64,000 nucleotides of DNA from an uncultured Acetobacteraceae bacterium (GTDB taxonomy: Bacteria; Pseudomonadota; Alphaproteobacteria; Acetobacterales; Acetobacteraceae). The stretch's first letter is position 1; the number at the start of each line of letters is the position of its first letter. The stretch covers positions 1 through 64,000 of the forward strand of contig CAIXDS010000195.1 of assembly GCA_903918195.1 (NCBI GenBank). The letters run 5' to 3'. The notes under the pieces are model-generated. The model was given only the letters and a program-made list of their open reading frames with translations, was not told the origin of the DNA and did no database searches. Shown piece after piece: positions 9,173-53,928 of this stretch. A program made the position numbers and the translations under genes.

Positions 9173-11995
9173 ATGAGCGACAAGCAAGACTACCGCGACA
9201 CCGTTTTCCTGCCCGCCACCCCCTTCCCCATGCGCGGCGACCTGCCGAAGAAGGAACCGGGGCTGCTGGCCCGCTGGGAGCGGATGGGCATCTGGCAACG
9301 GCTGCGCGAGGCCTCGCACGGGCGGGAGAAGTTCATCCTGCATGACGGCCCGCCCTATGCGAACGGCAACATCCATATCGGCACCGCGCTGAACAAGATC
9401 CTCAAGGACGTGATCAACCGCGCCGCCCAGATGGGCGGCTATGACGCGTTGTACATCCCGGGCTGGGACTGCCACGGCCTGCCGATCGAGTGGAAGATCG
9501 AGGAGCAGTACCGCAGCCAGTCGCGCGACAAGGATGCCGTGCCGGTGCTGCAGTTCCGCGCCGAGTGCCGCGCCTATGCCGGCCACTGGATGGACGTGCA
9601 GCAGACGGAATTCCGCCGCCTCGGCGTGCAGGGCGCCTGGGGCGAACGCTACGCCACCATGGATTTTCCCTCCGAAGCGGCGATCGTCAACGAGATCGGC
9701 AAGTTCCTGCTGAACGGGGAATTGTTCCGCGGCCTGCGGCCGGTGATGTGGTCGCCGGTGGAAAAGACGGCGCTGGCCGAGGCCGAGATCGAATACCACG
9801 ACCATACGTCCACGACGATTTTTGTCGCCTTCCCGGTGGTGACACCCTCGGTGCCGGTGCTGGCGGGGGCCTCGGTGGTGATCTGGACCACCACGCCCTG
9901 GACCATGCCCGGCAACCGCGCCATCGCCTGCGGTGCGGCGTTCGATTACGCCGTGGTGCGGATCGACTCGGTGAAGGAAGGATCGCTCGCCCGCGCGGGC
10001 GCTGCGCTGGTGGTGGCGCTGCCGCTGCTGCCGGAAACCTGCGCGGCGCTGGGGGTGGAAACCCACCATGTGCTGCACCTGGTGAAGGGCGAAGACATCG
10101 CCGGCACCATCTGCGCCCATCCGCTGCGCGGGCGGGGCTACGACTACGATGTGCCGGTGTTTCTCGGCGATTTCGTCACCACCGAAGTCGGCACCGGTTT
10201 TGTCCACATCGCCCCCGGCCACGGCGAGGACGATTTTGATCTCGGCCGGGAACACGGCATCGCGGTGCCGGAAACGGTCGGCGATGACGGCACCTTCAAC
10301 CCCTGGGTGCCGCTGTTTGCCGGCTTGCACGTCTACAAGGCCGCCGATCCGGTCTGCGTCGCCATGACCGAGGCGGGCGGGTTGCTGGCGCGCGGCAAAC
10401 TGGTCCATTCCTACCCGCATTCCTGGCGCTCGAAGGCGCCGCTGATCTTCCGCGCCACGCCGCAATGGTTCATCCGCATGGATGGCGAAGGCCGCATCCG
10501 CGAGAAGGCCCTGCAGGCGATTGCGGAAACCGATTTCGTGCCGGAGAAGGGCCGCACCCGGCTGGCCAGCATGATCGCGGCGCGGCCGGACTGGTGCATC
10601 AGCCGCCAGCGCGCCTGGGGCGTGCCGATCGCCGTGTTCGTGGAAAAAGCAACCGGGCAGCCGCTGCGCGACCCTGACGTGGTGGCGCGCATCGTCGAGG
10701 CGTTCCGCGAGGAAGGGGCGGATGCATGGTACGCCGCCCCGCCCGAACGGTTCCTCGGCCCCGGCCGTGACCCGGCCGATTACGAGCAGGTGAAAGACAT
10801 TGTGGATGTGTGGTTCGAGTCCGGCTCGACCCATGCGTTTACCCTCGAAGACCGGCATCTGCCCTGGCCGGCCGACCTGTACCTGGAAGGATCGGATCAG
10901 CACCGCGGCTGGTTCCATTCCTCACTGCTGGAATCGGTCGGCACGCGCGGGCGGGCGCCGTTCAAGGCGGTGCTGACACACGGCTTCGTGCTCGACGAGC
11001 AGGGCCGCAAGATGTCGAAATCCATGGGCAACGTGATCGCCCCGCAGGAGGTCTGCGACAAATATGGCGCCGACATCCTGCGGCTGTGGGTGATGATGTC
11101 CGACACCGCCGACGATCTGCGCATCGGCCCGGAAATCCTCAAGCAGCAGGCCGAGCTGTACCGCCGCCTGCGCAACACGCTGCGCTGGCTGCTCGGCAGC
11201 CTGGCCGGGTTCTCCAACGCCGAGCGCCTGCCGGAAGCGGAAATGCCGGAACTGGAGCGCTGGGTACTGCACCGGCTGGCGGAACTCGATGCACGGGTGC
11301 GCTACGGCGTGCAGACCTATGACTGGACCGGGGTGTATCCGGCCCTGCATACGTTCTGCTCCACCGACCTTTCGGCGTTCTATTTCGACATCCGCAAGGA
11401 CGCGATCTATTGCGGCCGGCCGGACGATATCCGCCGCCGCGCCGCCCGCACAGTACTCGACCATCTGCACCGCTGCCTGACCACCTGGCTCGCGCCGGTG
11501 CTGGTGTTCACCGCCGAGGAAGCCTGGGTCGCCCGCTTCGGCGAGGCGACCAGCGTGCATTTGCAGGATTTCCCCGACATCGCGGAACGCTGGCAGGACG
11601 AGGCGCTGGCGCTGCGCTGGACGGAGATCCGCGACATCCGCCGCGTCATCACCGGCGCGCTGGAGCGGGCGCGCGCCGAGGGGACGATCGGCGCCTCGCT
11701 GCAGGCCGCCCCGGTGCTGCATCTGCCGGACGACAAGGCGGGGCTGCGCTCCGCGGGCGAATGGGCGGAACTGGCCATCGTGTCCGATCTGACGGTCTCG
11801 ACCGAACCGCCGCCGGAGGGCGCGTTCGCCCTGCCGGAGGTGCCGGGCGTGGCGGTGGCCTTCGCCCGGGCGCCCGGCGAAAAATGCGCCCGTTGCTGGA
11901 AAGTGCTGCCCGAGGTGGGCGAGGACCACAAACACCCGACACTCTGCCGCCGCTGCGCCGACGCGGTCGAGTCCCGCCTGGTCGGCCCGGCATGA
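9173..11995 (+). CDS. ileS: Isoleucyl-tRNA synthetase
   Basis: 940 residues, the full family length. Class I signatures are present: PYANGNIHIG (residues 61-70) and KMSKS (613-617). The WCISRQRAWGVPI block and the editing domain between them are intact. The C-terminal zinc finger CARCW...LCRRC is present, placing it in the bacterial type with Zn motif. A TTG lies one codon before the ATG at 9173; the ATG is preferred. The ribosome site is weak. The stop overlaps the lspA start (ATGA), giving coupled translation. Confidence 0.98.
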   Translation: MSDKQDYRDTVFLPATPFPMRGDLPKKEPGLLARWERMGIWQRLREASHGREKFILHDGPPYANGNIHIGTALNKILKDVINRAAQMGGYDALYIPGWDCHGLPIEWKIEEQYRSQSRDKDAVPVLQFRAECRAYAGHWMDVQQTEFRRLGVQGAWGERYATMDFPSEAAIVNEIGKFLLNGELFRGLRPVMWSPVEKTALAEAEIEYHDHTSTTIFVAFPVVTPSVPVLAGASVVIWTTTPWTMPGNRAIACGAAFDYAVVRIDSVKEGSLARAGAALVVALPLLPETCAALGVETHHVLHLVKGEDIAGTICAHPLRGRGYDYDVPVFLGDFVTTEVGTGFVHIAPGHGEDDFDLGREHGIAVPETVGDDGTFNPWVPLFAGLHVYKAADPVCVAMTEAGGLLARGKLVHSYPHSWRSKAPLIFRATPQWFIRMDGEGRIREKALQAIAETDFVPEKGRTRLASMIAARPDWCISRQRAWGVPIAVFVEKATGQPLRDPDVVARIVEAFREEGADAWYAAPPERFLGPGRDPADYEQVKDIVDVWFESGSTHAFTLEDRHLPWPADLYLEGSDQHRGWFHSSLLESVGTRGRAPFKAVLTHGFVLDEQGRKMSKSMGNVIAPQEVCDKYGADILRLWVMMSDTADDLRIGPEILKQQAELYRRLRNTLRWLLGSLAGFSNAERLPEAEMPELERWVLHRLAELDARVRYGVQTYDWTGVYPALHTFCSTDLSAFYFDIRKDAIYCGRPDDIRRRAARTVLDHLHRCLTTWLAPVLVFTAEEAWVARFGEATSVHLQDFPDIAERWQDEALALRWTEIRDIRRVITGALERARAEGTIGASLQAAPVLHLPDDKAGLRSAGEWAELAIVSDLTVSTEPPPEGAFALPEVPGVAVAFARAPGEKCARCWKVLPEVGEDHKHPTLCRRCADAVESRLVGPA

Positions 11996-38257: not shown

Positions 38258-40054
38258 TTAACGCGGCGGCGCGGCGACGGCCTTGTCAGGCACCTTCGGA
38301 TGGGTGGGCGCCGATGCCGCCGGCACCACCACCCCCGCATCCTCGTCGTATTGCAGGTGGTTGGGCGCACCGCAGGCGGTCACCACTGCGTCTTCGTCGT
38401 AGTGCAGGTCGTTCGGTGCGCCGCAGGCCGAGATGGTCTCGGACTGGCCGCGCCCCGCCGGCTGTTGCAGGTACTGGCTGTCGTTGGTCGGCGAGCATTT
38501 GCCGATGATCGTGGGCGTGCCGGTGAAGTTGACGTCGGCGGCGAGATCGGGCCGGTTGCGCTTGGTCGCCTGAATCTGCTCGGAGGTCAGCACCTTGCTC
38601 TGGTCGAAGCCCAGTTCCCATTCCGAGGACATGCCGTTGAACTTCAGGCGCTCGAGATCGTAGAATTTCTTCTCCCACGTCGTCTTCGCGAACGCCTTCA
38701 GGCAGCCGAGCATGTACTTGCGCTTCCACTTGTCGCGAATCCACGGATAGCCGAGGAACGTCTTCCGCAGATAGAAGCGCGCATAGTTCTTCATCACGCC
38801 CTTGAGCACCTGCTCGCGGGTCATGGCGTCGGGCTTCATGATCGGCGTGACGAAATTGTACTTCGAGTAGTCGCGGACCTCGACCTTGTCGCCCAGATCC
38901 TCGAACAGCTCGGCGAAGGGCCACGGCGTGTAGCAGTTCCAGTTGACCATGTCGGCCTTCCAGTCCAGCCCCAGCCGGTAGGTTTCCTCGATGGTCTCCG
39001 GAGTCTCGTTCTCCAGCCCCATGATGAACTGCACTTCGGCGACCATGCCGGCGTCGCGCAGCAGCTTCACCGCCAGCTTGTTCTGCTCGATTGTGGTTTC
39101 CTTGCGGAACAGGTCGAGCTTCATCTGGGCGGCCGCCTCGGTGCCCAGCGAAACATGCACGAGGCCGGCCTTGCGGAACATCGGCAGCAATTCGCGGTCG
39201 CGCAGGATGTCGGTGACGCGGGTGTTGATGCCCCAATGCACCGGCAGGTTACGCTCGATCAACTCCTCGCACAGCCGGATGAACTTCTTGCGGTTGATGG
39301 TCGGTTCCTCGTCGGCGAGGATGAAGAAACCGACATTGTGCTCGCGCACCAGCATTTCGACTTCGTCGACGAATTTCTTCGGATCGCGGGTGCGATACTG
39401 GCGCCAGAACTTCCACTGCGAGCAGAACCGGCAGGTGAACGGGCAGCCACGGGCGAAGTTGGGCACCGCTACCCGGCAGTTCAGCGGGGTGTAGATGTAT
39501 TTGTCCCACTCCAGCAGCGACCAGTCCGGGGTCAGGCTGTCGAGGTCCTTGATGACCGGATGCGCCGGAGTGGCGACCAGCTGGCCGTCTTCCAGGAAGG
39601 CCAGGCCCTTGATTTCGCGCCGTTTCGCCAGATGGGTGCCGTCCTGGATGGCGCGCATCAGATTGACGGTGATCTCCTCGCCCTCGCCGCGGACGATGTA
39701 GTCGATCCAGGGCGCCTCGCTGAGCACCTGGGCGTACATGAAGGTGGGATGGATGCCGCCGAGGATGGTGACCGCGTTCGGCACCGCTTCCCGCGCCAGT
39801 TGCAGCGTCTTCTGCGCCTGATAAATCATCGGGGTGATGGCGGTGGCCATCACCACGTCGGGCTGAATCTTGCGGATCATCTCGGCGAGCTTGTCGTCCG
39901 GGATGTAGTTCGTCATGGCATCGACGAAGCGGATGTTGGTGATGCCCGCCTGCTTCAGCGCGCCACCGACATAGGCCACCCAGCCCGGCGGCCAGTTGCC
40001 GGCAATCTCGGCACCACCGGAATGGTAGTTGGGCTGGATCATCATCACGCGCAT
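38258..40054 (-). CDS. bchE: Anaerobic Mg-protoporphyrin IX monomethyl ester cyclase
   Basis: 598 residues. The N-terminal cobalamin-binding domain (residues 1 to about 170) precedes a radical-SAM core with CPFTCRFC (Cys204, 208, 211), followed by the BchE-type C-terminal domain. It forms the isocyclic ring with oxygen from water under anoxia. The C-terminal tail holds two copies of ACGAPN-L-YDEDA (543-556 and 560-573). A near-perfect FNR box lies 64 bases before the ATG. The same cluster also encodes the aerobic cyclase AcsF. Confidence 0.97.
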   Translation of the reverse strand: MRVMMIQPNYHSGGAEIAGNWPPGWVAYVGGALKQAGITNIRFVDAMTNYIPDDKLAEMIRKIQPDVVMATAITPMIYQAQKTLQLAREAVPNAVTILGGIHPTFMYAQVLSEAPWIDYIVRGEGEEITVNLMRAIQDGTHLAKRREIKGLAFLEDGQLVATPAHPVIKDLDSLTPDWSLLEWDKYIYTPLNCRVAVPNFARGCPFTCRFCSQWKFWRQYRTRDPKKFVDEVEMLVREHNVGFFILADEEPTINRKKFIRLCEELIERNLPVHWGINTRVTDILRDRELLPMFRKAGLVHVSLGTEAAAQMKLDLFRKETTIEQNKLAVKLLRDAGMVAEVQFIMGLENETPETIEETYRLGLDWKADMVNWNCYTPWPFAELFEDLGDKVEVRDYSKYNFVTPIMKPDAMTREQVLKGVMKNYARFYLRKTFLGYPWIRDKWKRKYMLGCLKAFAKTTWEKKFYDLERLKFNGMSSEWELGFDQSKVLTSEQIQATKRNRPDLAADVNFTGTPTIIGKCSPTNDSQYLQQPAGRGQSETISACGAPNDLHYDEDAVVTACGAPNHLQYDEDAGVVVPAASAPTHPKVPDKAVAAPPR

Positions 40055-49511: not shown

Positions 49512-50723
49512 TCACGCGGCGCGGCGCAGGCTGAACTGCGACCAGATGGACGACAGCGACGACACCAAATGCTCGATGTCGGCATCGGTGTGCAGCGGGC
49601 CTGGGGTGAAACGCAGACGTTCTGTGCCGCGCGGCACGGTCGGATAGTTGATGGCCTGCACATAGATGCCGTGGTGGTCGAGCAACTGGTCGCTGATCTG
49701 CTTGCAGACCACCGCATCGCCGACCATCACCGGCACGATATGGCTCGGGTTTTCCATGTGCGGCACACCGACTTCGTCGAGCCGGCGGCGCACCCGGGCG
49801 ACCCGGTCGCGTTGCGCGAGGCGTTCGGCGTCGCTGTTCTTGAGGTGGCGGATGCTGGCGATCGCGCCCGCTGCCACCGACGGCGGAATCGAGGTGGTGA
49901 AGATGAAGCCCGAGGCGAAGCTGCGCACGAAATCGCACATGGCGTGCGAGCCGGCGATGTAGCCGCCGGCGACGCCGAACGCCTTGCCGAGCGTGCCCTC
50001 GATCACCGTCAGCCGATGCGAAATCTTCTCCTGATCGGTAACGCCGCCACCGCGCGGGCCGTACATGCCGACCGCATGCACCTCGTCGATATAGGTCATG
50101 GCATTGTGCTTATCGGCCACATCGCAGATCTCGGCGATCGGCGCGATGTCGCCGTCCATCGAGTAGACCGACTCGAAGGCCACCAGCTTGGGCCGGTCCG
50201 GCCCGATCTCGGCGAGCGTGCGGTCCAGGTCCTCGACGTCATTGTGCTTGAAGATGCGCTTCTCGGCCCGGCTGTGGCGCACGCCCTCGATCATGGAAGC
50301 ATGGTTCAGCTCGTCCGATACGATGACGCAGCCCGGGATGCCGGCGCCGAGCGTGGTCAGCGTCGCCCAGTTCGACATGTAGCCCGAGTTGAACAGCAGC
50401 GCCGATTCAGTGCCGTGCAGATCGGCGAGTTCGCGCTCCAGCAGCACGTGGTAGTGGTTGGTGCCGGAGATGTTGCGCGTGCCACCGGCGCCGGCGCCGC
50501 AGCGGTCCAGCGCTTCGTGCATGGCCGCCAGCACGTCCGCGTTCTGGCCCATGCCGAGGTAATCGTTCGAGCACCACACCGTCACCTTGGTGGGGCCGCG
50601 CTCGCGGTGGTGCGTCGCGCGGGGGAATTCCCCCACATGGCGTTCCAGATCGGCAAACACCCGATAGCGACCCTCCCGACGGAGTCCATCGAGTTGTTTG
50701 CTGAAGAAGGCTTCGTAGTTCAT
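49512..50723 (-). CDS. hemA: 5-aminolevulinate synthase
   Basis: 403 residues, pyridoxal-phosphate alpha-oxoamine synthase. The glycine-rich loop [17 protein letters not shown], the [10 protein letters not shown] block and the Schiff-base lysine in [14 protein letters not shown] are present. It condenses glycine with succinyl-CoA, the first step of tetrapyrrole synthesis in alphaproteobacteria. GGAGGCCACAC precedes the ATG. The gene lies downstream of puhE in the superoperon but has its own leader with a palindrome. Confidence 0.98.
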
Positions 50724-50757
50724 GTGTGGCCTCCGAATGGGGATCATCTTGCGCGTG

Positions 50758-50805: not shown

Positions 50806-52554
50806 TTAAGTTCTGTTCATTCTTGCTGGCACGGTGGTACAGGCCGCGAACGCTGCCTGCAACCGACCGCGGTCGATCTCACGTCCCACTGCAACCAGGC
50901 GGGGCATCTCGTCCTCGGTGGCGGCAAACGCCGTGAGGTTCGGGCGGCTACCGGAACAATCGAACCGCACCCACCCCGGGCCTGCCCGCACCACGCCCTT
51001 CACATGCTCGACCTGACCGAAGGCGCCGCCGGCGACGGCTTCAAGCAATTCGTGCAGGAGTTGCGGATCGCAGCTTCCGGGCAGCGCCATACTCCAGGTG
51101 CCGAAGCCGAGCGCATCCGCCTGCACATCGAAATGTCCCGACGCGGTGACGCCGGCAACCGTATCGATCGTCAGGTCGGACATATCCGCCTCTCCTGGCG
51201 CCGCCGCGCGATCGTGTTCGGCCGCGCCGGCACGCAGCGCGCCGTACGTGGCCGGCACCACGCGTGCCTCCGGGTTCAGCGCATGCAGCGTCGCCTCCAC
51301 CATGCGCAATTCGGCCGGTGCGACCAGATCCGTCTTGTTCACCACCAGGGTATGCGCGAGCGTCGCCTGCTGCTCGAAATAGCGCTGCAGTCTGGCGTAG
51401 TCGCGCAGGAACGCGCCGGCGTCAATCAGCGCCGTCACCTGCACGCTTTTCACCAGCGGCTTGAGATCAGGCCGCGCCAGCACGCCAAGCAGGGCGCCGA
51501 GATCGGCGCTGCCGGCGGGCTCGATGATGATGCGCTGCGGCGACCAGCGGGCCACCGACTGGCGAATCTGCAGCGACAGGTTGCGCGCCAGCGGCAGGAA
51601 CACCGAGCTGCCGGCCGCGGCCCCGGGGCTGCGGTCACGCAGCAGCGCGGCATCCAGATGCATCGCGTCCGGATCGTTCACCAGCACCAGCGTGCGCAGC
51701 TCCGGATCGATCCGGCGCAGCCGGCGGCGCAGGAAGCTGGTTTTGCCGGCGCCGAGGAAGCCGGCGACGATTTCGACATCGAAGCCATGCGGTGGGCGAT
51801 GCGACTGCAGGCTCCAGCGCCACAGCGCCGCCGCGGGCAGCGGCAGCACCAGGAACCAGTGCTCCAGGATCGCCAGCGTCATCATCGTGGCGACGAAAGT
51901 GAAGCCCGCCGCGGTGGCGGCATCGGCGTCCGCCGCCAGGGCATGGCGGAACAGCAGCGCCGCCACCACCGTGGACACCGTCACCGACACCGGAAACAGC
52001 AGGTTCATCGGCGCCTTGCGGAAGAAGCTTTTCAGGAACGCCAGATGCTCGGGGATGAACTCCTCGTTGAGGTTGCGCACCCCGAGGAACACGTTCAGCC
52101 GCGCACTCTGGTGCATCCACCACAGCACCATGAAGGTCCAGGTGCCGATCTGGTTCGTCCCGCCCCAGGTGACGCCGACCACCGCCGCCGCCACCACCAG
52201 AATCGCCAGCTCGTGCCACAGGCAGGCCAGGATCGCGTGGCCGAAATGCCGCCAGCCGCGGCAGCCTTCCGGGCAGGCCTGCTTGCGCACGCCGGTGACG
52301 TAGCCGAGGTAAAAACTCACCTCCAGCCACGCCCAGGCGAGCAGCCCGAAGGTGAAGGCCTGGTAGGCGCCGCCCACGCTCATGTCGCTGGCACTGCTGG
52401 CGAGCCCCACCAGCGACGCCGCCAGCAGCACGGTCGATCCCAGCATGGTCCAGCGGAACGTCCAGCGCGGCAGCCCGTCCAGGTAAATCACCAGGCCGGT
52501 GCTGAACCACCAGATGAACAGAGCATGCAGCGCGGGATAGACGTACTGGGACAT
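50806..52554 (-). CDS. puhE: PuhE fused to a G3E-family (CobW/COG0523-like) GTPase
   Basis: 582 residues. Residues 1 to about 255 are PuhE (photosynthetic complex assembly protein 2): several membrane helices and the family block NVFLGVRNLNEEF...LAFLKSFFRKAPMNLLFPVSVTVSTV, ending EHWFLVLPLPAAALWRW. From about 258 a complete P-loop GTPase follows: Walker A GFLGAGKTS (265-273), IIIEPAGSAD (343-351) in the Walker B/switch position, guanine motif NKTD (406-409) and a CobW_C-like domain (about 465-575). The CxCC metal motif expected near 314-320 is replaced by SSVFLP. The two parts are in one frame without a stop. Usual PuhE ends after the first part. Confidence 0.9.
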   Translation of the reverse strand: MSQYVYPALHALFIWWFSTGLVIYLDGLPRWTFRWTMLGSTVLLAASLVGLASSASDMSVGGAYQAFTFGLLAWAWLEVSFYLGYVTGVRKQACPEGCRGWRHFGHAILACLWHELAILVVAAAVVGVTWGGTNQIGTWTFMVLWWMHQSARLNVFLGVRNLNEEFIPEHLAFLKSFFRKAPMNLLFPVSVTVSTVVAALLFRHALAADADAATAAGFTFVATMMTLAILEHWFLVLPLPAAALWRWSLQSHRPPHGFDVEIVAGFLGAGKTSFLRRRLRRIDPELRTLVLVNDPDAMHLDAALLRDRSPGAAAGSSVFLPLARNLSLQIRQSVARWSPQRIIIEPAGSADLGALLGVLARPDLKPLVKSVQVTALIDAGAFLRDYARLQRYFEQQATLAHTLVVNKTDLVAPAELRMVEATLHALNPEARVVPATYGALRAGAAEHDRAAAPGEADMSDLTIDTVAGVTASGHFDVQADALGFGTWSMALPGSCDPQLLHELLEAVAGGAFGQVEHVKGVVRAGPGWVRFDCSGSRPNLTAFAATEDEMPRLVAVGREIDRGRLQAAFAACTTVPARMNRT

Positions 52555-52569
52555 GCTGGACCGCTCGCT

Positions 52570-53643
52570 CTACCAGGCTGCGGCGAGCCGAACCCGGGCG
52601 GGTGGCTCGTTCGGTTTGGCCGGGATCAGATAGAGCCGCGCAATTACCGCCGCCGACGCCGCGGTCAGGCCGACCCGCTTCAGCCGCGCCAGCACGCCGC
52701 CCTGCTCACGGGCCGACGCCAGCGCGCGCGTGATCTGCCACAAGCGCTCGAGCCCGGCACGGAAGGCGGGGGCGTCAATGTCGAGCGTCAGCGGGAACAC
52801 CTGGCGGGTGATCTCGTTGGTGATGGCGTACACCTTGTAGTCGTACTCAGTGGGATCGACGCCCAGCGCGGCATGGAACACCGGCCGCGCGTGGTCGCGC
52901 ACATACATCGTGGCGTAGACCGCGAGCAGGAAGAACTTGATCCACAGCTTGTTGAAGCCGCGCAGCAGCTGCGGGTTGGCGCGCATCGCCATGGCGAACG
53001 CCTCGCCGTGGCGGAACTCGTCCTGGCACCAGTTCTCGAACCATTTGAAGATCGGGTGGAAGCGCAGCTCCGGATGGCGTTCGAGCTGGCGGAAGATGGT
53101 GATGTAGCGGGCGTAGCCGATCTTCTCCGACAGGTAGACGGCGTAGAAGATGAATTTCGGCTGGAAGTAGGTGTACTTCTTGGCCTTCGTGAGGAAGCCG
53201 AGATCGACGCCGACGCCGAAATCCTTCAGCGTGTCGTTGATGAACCCGGCATGGCGCGCCTCGTCGCGGCTCATGTAGCCGAACCAGTCGCGGATTTTCG
53301 GGTTGCTGATGCGCTTCTTGATCTCGGAATACAGCACGCAGCCGGAGAATTCCGCCGTCACCGAGCTGACCAGGAAGTCGATGAACTCGTGTCGCAGCTC
53401 CGGCGGCAGGGTGGACAGGTCGCGGTTGAATTCGTCGTTGCGGATGAAGTGACCGCGGTTGGTGTCGCGGGCGAACTCGGCCATCAACTCGTCCCACTCG
53501 GCCTGCACCGCCGATACGTCAAGCCGGTCCATGGCGGCGAAGTCGGTGGTGTAGAAGCGTGGCGCCAGTACGGTGTTGGCCTGTGCCAGTCGTGTTGTAT
53601 CGTTTATAAAATGGTCGGGCCGCGGATCGGTCAGAGCGTCCAT
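52570..53643 (-). CDS. acsF: Aerobic Mg-protoporphyrin IX monomethyl ester cyclase
   Basis: 357 residues, membrane-bound diiron oxygenase. Ferritin-like metal ligands lie in [25 protein letters not shown] and [31 protein letters not shown] ends the protein. It uses O2 to form the isocyclic ring and complements BchE encoded at 38258. The ATG is one base from the stop of the preceding gene. In alphaproteobacteria the cyclase also needs BciE or Ycf54-like partners in some groups; none is recognised here. Confidence 0.97.
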
Positions 53644-53928
53644 TTATGTCCCCCGTTGGAAGCCCACTTCGTACAGCTCGGTGAGCGCGAAGAGGCCGGT
53701 TTTTTGTATCCAGAGTCGTTGCAGCCAGCCGGCGCGGATGACGGTCGCGCGGCATTGCAGCGTCACCCGGTCGCCGAAGCGCACTTCGGTGGGCGCGCCG
53801 TGCACCACCACGGTGTCGCCGGGCCGGATGTCGATGCCGTCGGGAATTGCGTGGGCATGCAGGCTTTCGGCCGTCTGTTCGATGTCCACCGTGCAGGTGA
53901 CCTCGATGGTGCGACGGCCAAAGATCAT
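53644..53928 (-). CDS. Conserved-looking 94-residue protein between puhC and acsF
   Basis: 94 residues, soluble, beta-rich. It reads IEVTCTVDIEQTAESLHAHAIPDG, then IRPGDTVVVHGAPTEVRFGDRVTLQCRATVIRAG in outline (blocks PGDTVVVHGAP, DRVTLQCRATV). The shape recalls OB-like or small beta-barrel proteins. Unknown ORFs of about this size are found between puhC and acsF in other acsF-bearing clusters, from memory. It overlaps puhC by ATGA and abuts acsF, so it is part of the same translated unit. No function is known to me. Confidence 0.85.
   Translation of the reverse strand: MIFGRRTIEVTCTVDIEQTAESLHAHAIPDGIDIRPGDTVVVHGAPTEVRFGDRVTLQCRATVIRAGWLQRLWIQKTGLFALTELYEVGFQRGT

Follow-up and report, generated by a model that had tools for sequence, protein, structure and literature searches.

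What does a GTPase of the G3E type do at the end of a photosynthesis assembly protein, and can it still handle a metal? The question is raised by a stretch of 64,000 nucleotides (hereafter the window) from an uncultured Acetobacteraceae bacterium, in which a single open frame on the minus strand (50806-52554) encodes a 582-residue fusion of PuhE, a G3E GTPase and a CobW_C domain. In Rhodobacter capsulatus, PuhE is an assembly factor and pigment modulator. A first-pass annotation, made from the DNA alone, had proposed a membrane-tethered GTPase that couples metal or cofactor delivery to the assembly of the reaction centre or of the cyclase AcsF.

Architecture and setting of the fusion gene

All features described here lie on the minus strand. 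The PuhE/DUF3623 domain (residues 1-253; 51796-52554) is matched by PF12291 (E 5.7e-109, 363.7 bits, cut-off 27) and, over its full length, by the NCBIfam PuhE model TIGR03055 (317.9 bits, cut-off 164.05). It is followed by a G3E P-loop GTPase domain (about residues 257-440; 51235-51786), matched by PF02492 over residues 260-433 (E 5e-23), by a linker (51103-51222) and by a CobW_C domain (PF07683, residues 485-572; 50839-51102; E 3.4e-8, 33.7 bits, cut-off 22). The G3E motif set is complete, with a P-loop GFLGAGKT (residues 265-272; 51739-51762), ExxG as EPAG and NKxD as NKTD. Pfam and NCBIfam thus agree with the first-pass annotation that PuhE, a P-loop GTPase and a CobW_C-like tail share one frame, and alignment bears it out on the absence of the CxCC metal motif, since SVFL (residues 317-320; 51595-51606) stands in its place; "lost" is the correct wording for this absence because CICC is present in a congener (G004) and in the majority of relatives. 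An assembly artefact or a missed stop or frameshift at the junction, the obvious objection to such a gene, is ruled out: a separate assembly of a congener (G001; locus L003, the same as L096) carries the same fusion with identical architecture and 83% identity, also without CxCC. The gene is therefore real and its junction sound. Compared with other PuhE proteins (DUF3623, TIGR03055), it shares the full-length domain and the operon position, but PuhE is usually about 250-280 residues long and has no extra domain, whereas the window protein is 330 residues longer.

In the structure predicted for the window protein (mean pLDDT 80, pTM 0.67), seven long PuhE helices (residues 5-26, 30-54, 60-83, 100-129, 136-157, 186-205 and 212-236), predicted to span the membrane, precede the GTPase and CobW_C domains. 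Positive charge is found on loops 84-99 and 158-185 and at the end of PuhE, with little on the opposite-side loops, so that by the positive-inside rule the GTPase is predicted to be cytoplasmic; the membrane tethering claimed for the protein is thereby supported. The G3E fold was also correctly recognised, as YjiA is both the closest solved structure by sequence and the top Foldseek match, Zn-bound crystal forms included. The PuhE half, queried within the larger model, gave no outstanding fold match in the structure searches.

The predicted cytoplasmic loop between PuhE helices 3 and 4 carries a cluster of the form C94-x3-C98-x4-H103-x2-H106 (52237-52275, PuhE alignment). In fused PuhE rows C94 and C98 are present in 53/53, and H103 and H106 in 52/53; in unfused rows C98 is found in 28/64, H103 in 20/64 and H106 in 24/64. 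H148 is likewise near-invariant in fused rows (52-53/53) and patchy in unfused ones. The cluster may possibly form a metal site on the GTPase side, and the association with fusion may reflect ancestry. We did not retain it as a co-evolving metal site: the association is seen, but it comprises just two independent pairs on supported branches.

Immediately upstream lies acsF, the aerobic cyclase gene (52570-53643; TIGR02029 match at 52612-53601), and the fusion gene starts 15 nucleotides past this ORF, in agreement with the statement that it directly follows acsF. Downstream is a hemA-like ORF (49512-50747), which we take, from recognition of its sequence, to encode 5-aminolevulinate synthase. 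With the window genes as queries, the order bchL-bchM-lhaA-puhA-puhB-puhC-acsF-puhE-hemA proved common to the window and related loci. Where flanks are long enough, the fusion occupies a constant position in the puh operon, usually behind acsF, which is its immediate neighbour in most fused loci. A 94-residue ORF lies between puhC and acsF in the window (53644-53928), a position kept in most related clusters.

Distribution and origin of the fused family

The fusion is not peculiar to one genome but a recurrent architecture found in dozens of species. PuhE is encoded in 122 of the 397 genomes of the window's family; 27 of these 122 have the fused GTPase, in some cases as a fragment at a contig end. 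Named genomes with the fusion include Acidiphilium rubrum, Acidocella, Lichenicoccus, Aurantimonas, Fulvimarina, Jiella and Lichenibacterium, together with Pararhizobium mangrovi, Rhodovibrio sodomensis, Ferrovum MAGs and Kouleothrix (Chloroflexota); the Aurantimonadaceae are a family-level carrier outside the window's own family. Even sampling of the class gave 27 genomes with PuhE above the cut-off, three of which carry the fusion. Since it is missing from most PuhE-bearing species, the fusion is not essential for photosystem assembly generally.

Some loci deserve separate mention. PuhE with its GTPase extension is encoded on two Kouleothrix contigs (L073 and L103), suggesting that the gene has moved between phyla. 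Two fused copies per assembly are seen twice (L062 with L065, and G083), and a MAG labelled Thiodictyon has two PuhE contigs, one of them fused (L102 and L116), possibly as a mixed bin. In the complete chromosome of Jiella pelagia (L105, about 10860-11443) the fusion gene is split over two frames within the GTPase domain.

In a tree with 17 standalone G3E proteins, E. coli YjiA among them, the 50 distinct fused GTPase domains group as a single clade (SH-aLRT 99). Fused copies score at least 344 bits against the family profile, except for one degenerate copy (G025, 204 bits) and contig-end fragments, and standalone proteins at most 200. Profile searches of 397 family and 398 phylum genomes revealed no standalone orthologue of the fused GTPase, and the GTPase half was not seen as a separate gene beside puhE in unfused clusters; the suggestion that related genomes might encode the two halves as neighbours thus found no counterpart. 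The data fit a single fusion event with later spread and losses, and the family is widespread and apparently of single origin. How often the fusion was gained and lost is uncertain, given the weak resolution deep in the PuhE tree.

No description of the fusion was found. In the literature searched, outside which most subscription journals fall, PuhE is nowhere mentioned together with CobW, nor COG0523 in combination with photosynthesis and bacteriochlorophyll, and the excerpts that name DUF3623 describe no fusion. The annotation, which knew of no description, agrees with this, and an earlier mention may exist elsewhere. Because domain databases will display the architecture, the novelty consists in its description, its distribution, the decay series described below and the link to zinc.

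Loss of the metal-binding elements

Most of the family appears equipped to bind a metal. The CICC motif is kept in 47 of the 50 distinct fused GTPase domains; among these 47 the P-loop and ExxG are universal (47/47) and an NKxD-type motif nearly so (46/47). The three exceptions are the window protein, in which alignment places SVFL at the CICC position with two residues (EL) absent directly before it, the congener G001 (AVFL) and G025 (GFRC). The linker is also affected. It holds at least six histidines in 40 of 45 CICC members, so that a His-rich linker is not universal (it is His-poor in the other five), and one or two in all three CICC-less members, two in the window protein; CICC and the His-rich linker were thus lost together. 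Going by the alignment, the window gene is a decayed member of an ancestral, presumably metal-binding fusion. The proposal that the window protein itself delivers a metal is consequently a part of the first-pass annotation that is not supported: with both elements gone, delivery by the G3E route is unlikely.

Could the GTPase half of the window lineage then be vestigial, a tolerated passenger decaying since the loss of metal binding? We consider this doubtful. On its side, the GTPase branch on which CICC disappeared is, as far as the trees tell, accelerated: the stem of the window protein and its congener L096 measures 0.57 changes per column in the GTPase tree vs 0.15 in the PuhE tree. Relatives also include PuhE proteins without the GTPase or without any tail, among them an unfused Rhodopila clade nearby in the tree, and remnants persist in Pelagibius MAGs. 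However, the P-loop, ExxG and NKxD are intact in all three CICC-less members, and in a single pair of genes that both lack CICC (window vs L096) omega is well under 1: the YN00 values are 0.106 (GTPase) and 0.054 (PuhE), the NG86 values higher at 0.364 and 0.160. The GTPase half of the window protein is under purifying selection, looser than that on PuhE.

The fate of the tail points the same way. PuhE joined to CobW_C without a GTPase domain occurs in Pelagibius L108 and in G030, where the tail exceeds the Pfam cut-off, and in seven more genomes, where it lies below or near that cut-off but is matched by the fused-family profile. Such GTPase-less PuhE-CobW_C proteins occur in several lineages (L108, L010, L169, L170, L173, L175, L177, L180 and L184), and the CobW_C domain appears, from these profile matches, to outlive the GTPase domain repeatedly. 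That it is retained as a domain suggests that parts of the tail have a role, and argues against mere decay. The CICC-less, GTPase-less and tail-less relatives constitute a natural series in which the role of each part may be dissected.

Metal, mechanism and candidate clients

The account that we regard, on balance, as probable is that PuhE anchors a family of COG0523-derived GTPases, of which the intact members handle a metal and the window copy has lost both metal elements. With COG0523 proteins (YjiA, YeiR, ZigA and CobW) the window protein shares the P-loop, ExxG, NKxD and CobW_C, and most fused relatives share CICC and often a His-rich linker. The fusions differ in their covalent link to a membrane protein encoded in the photosynthesis cluster and in forming a clade of their own, and the window copy differs further by its lack of CxCC. 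The CxCC metal motif is stated for all members of COG0523 (PMC2770081); as it is absent here, the window protein, though of COG0523 descent, should not be classed among these metallochaperones. What has been established for other COG0523 members is that a tight metal site forms with MgGTP, its thiols probably supplied by CxCC, and that the metal is released in the GDP form (PMC7895991).

CobW is a parallel to be considered. It too is a G3E GTPase and serves metal insertion into a tetrapyrrole, with the cobalt chelatase CobNST (PMC7895991). However, the fusions score far under the CobW equivalog cut-off of TIGR02475 (332 bits; window 34, CICC member L005 129.7) and the cysteine pair that precedes CxCC in five true CobW proteins of fusion-bearing genomes is absent from the fusions inspected. 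Of eight fused genomes searched, five encode a true CobW besides the fusion; the draft genome of the window itself yielded none. The idea that the fusion is simply its genome's own CobW is ruled out, where testable, by the separate CobW and the missing cysteine pair. Nor does the window protein reach the ZigA equivalog cut-off of NF038288 (45.5 bits vs 600). IcmF, in which a MeaB-type G3E chaperone is fused to its target mutase, is a precedent for a chaperone-partner fusion (PMC9164220), but it is a soluble enzyme with a cobalamin cofactor and belongs to another G3E subfamily.

By analogy with characterised homologues, Zn(II) would most likely be the metal of the intact family. CobW takes Co(II), YeiR and YjiA prefer Zn(II), and the extra cysteine pair marks CobW, homologues without it preferring zinc (PMC7895991). 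Zn(II) is favoured because the fusions have no such pair and because two of the nearest standalone relatives adjoin zinc-type transporters, either zinc CDF-type transporters or an AztA/AztC-like ABC transporter that scores close to but under the AztA/AztC cut-offs and is ZnuA by Pfam. The intact fusion thus fits best as a zinc-type, membrane-tethered metallochaperone for photosystem assembly.

For GTPase activity, metal, client and the role of the window copy, we infer the following scheme. PuhE would hold the GTPase on the cytoplasmic membrane face, where reaction centre and pigment are assembled. Intact members would collect the metal, most likely Zn(II), with their His-rich linker and enclose it in the CICC site on binding GTP; hydrolysis of the GTP would either pass the metal on to a client in photosystem assembly or withhold it from that client. 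The window protein, with its GTP-binding motifs and CobW_C retained and both metal elements gone, would probably no longer carry metal by the G3E route; it may persist for a GTP-dependent or docking role, or be on its way to the GTPase-less state. If so, a metallochaperone-type GTPase would be tied directly to photosystem assembly, in a gene of cultured species.

One such species is Acidiphilium rubrum, whose strain ATCC 35905 (L074) carries an intact CICC fusion. A. rubrum has exclusively Zn-bacteriochlorophyll a, and the step in which zinc replaces magnesium was unexplained as of a 2020 review (PMC7242693); its magnesium chelatase inserts magnesium, and the exchange for zinc is thought to come later (PMC4944227). 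The PuhE-tethered zinc-type GTPase is a concrete, testable candidate for this step. More specifically, the intact fusion might supply the Mg-free pigment with Zn(II) at the membrane in A. rubrum and its kin; in other carriers it might buffer or exclude zinc at that site. We put this proposal forward as improbable. A purely acid-specific or Zn-pigment-only role is unlikely, given that the fusion also occurs in marine Aurantimonadaceae, Rhodovibrio and Kouleothrix. To our knowledge, zinc pigment has not been reported from the marine and other non-acidophilic carriers of the intact form.

The GTPase half might instead act on the type II reaction centre, by inserting its non-haem Fe(II) or metallating it in some other way, with no pigment step involved. 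The gene does lie inside the puh block for reaction-centre assembly wherever the flanks suffice, it is retained where acsF is not adjacent, and bchE is present in some fused genomes and absent from others, so that neither cyclase explains the fusion. We nevertheless hold this to be quite unlikely, as most PuhE phototrophs with the same type of reaction centre do without a fused GTPase (fused in 3/27 of the even class sample). A zinc-type metallochaperone in photosystem assembly remains the reading that we prefer. Delivery of iron to the diiron cyclase AcsF, the coupling initially suggested, has in its favour the adjacency of acsF in the window and in most fused loci, but is very improbable: L076, L080 and L100 have no acsF between puhC and the fusion, searches of two draft genomes (those with L100 and Kouleothrix L103, which may be incomplete) turned up no AcsF, unfused PuhE genes follow acsF equally often, and CICC sites without the extra cysteine pair of CobW prefer zinc in measured homologues (PMC7895991). 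Neither AcsF nor BchE, considered as the partner that would explain the presence of the fusion, tracks it. The window also encodes BchE (38567-40051), and its genome thus has both the anaerobic and the aerobic cyclase.
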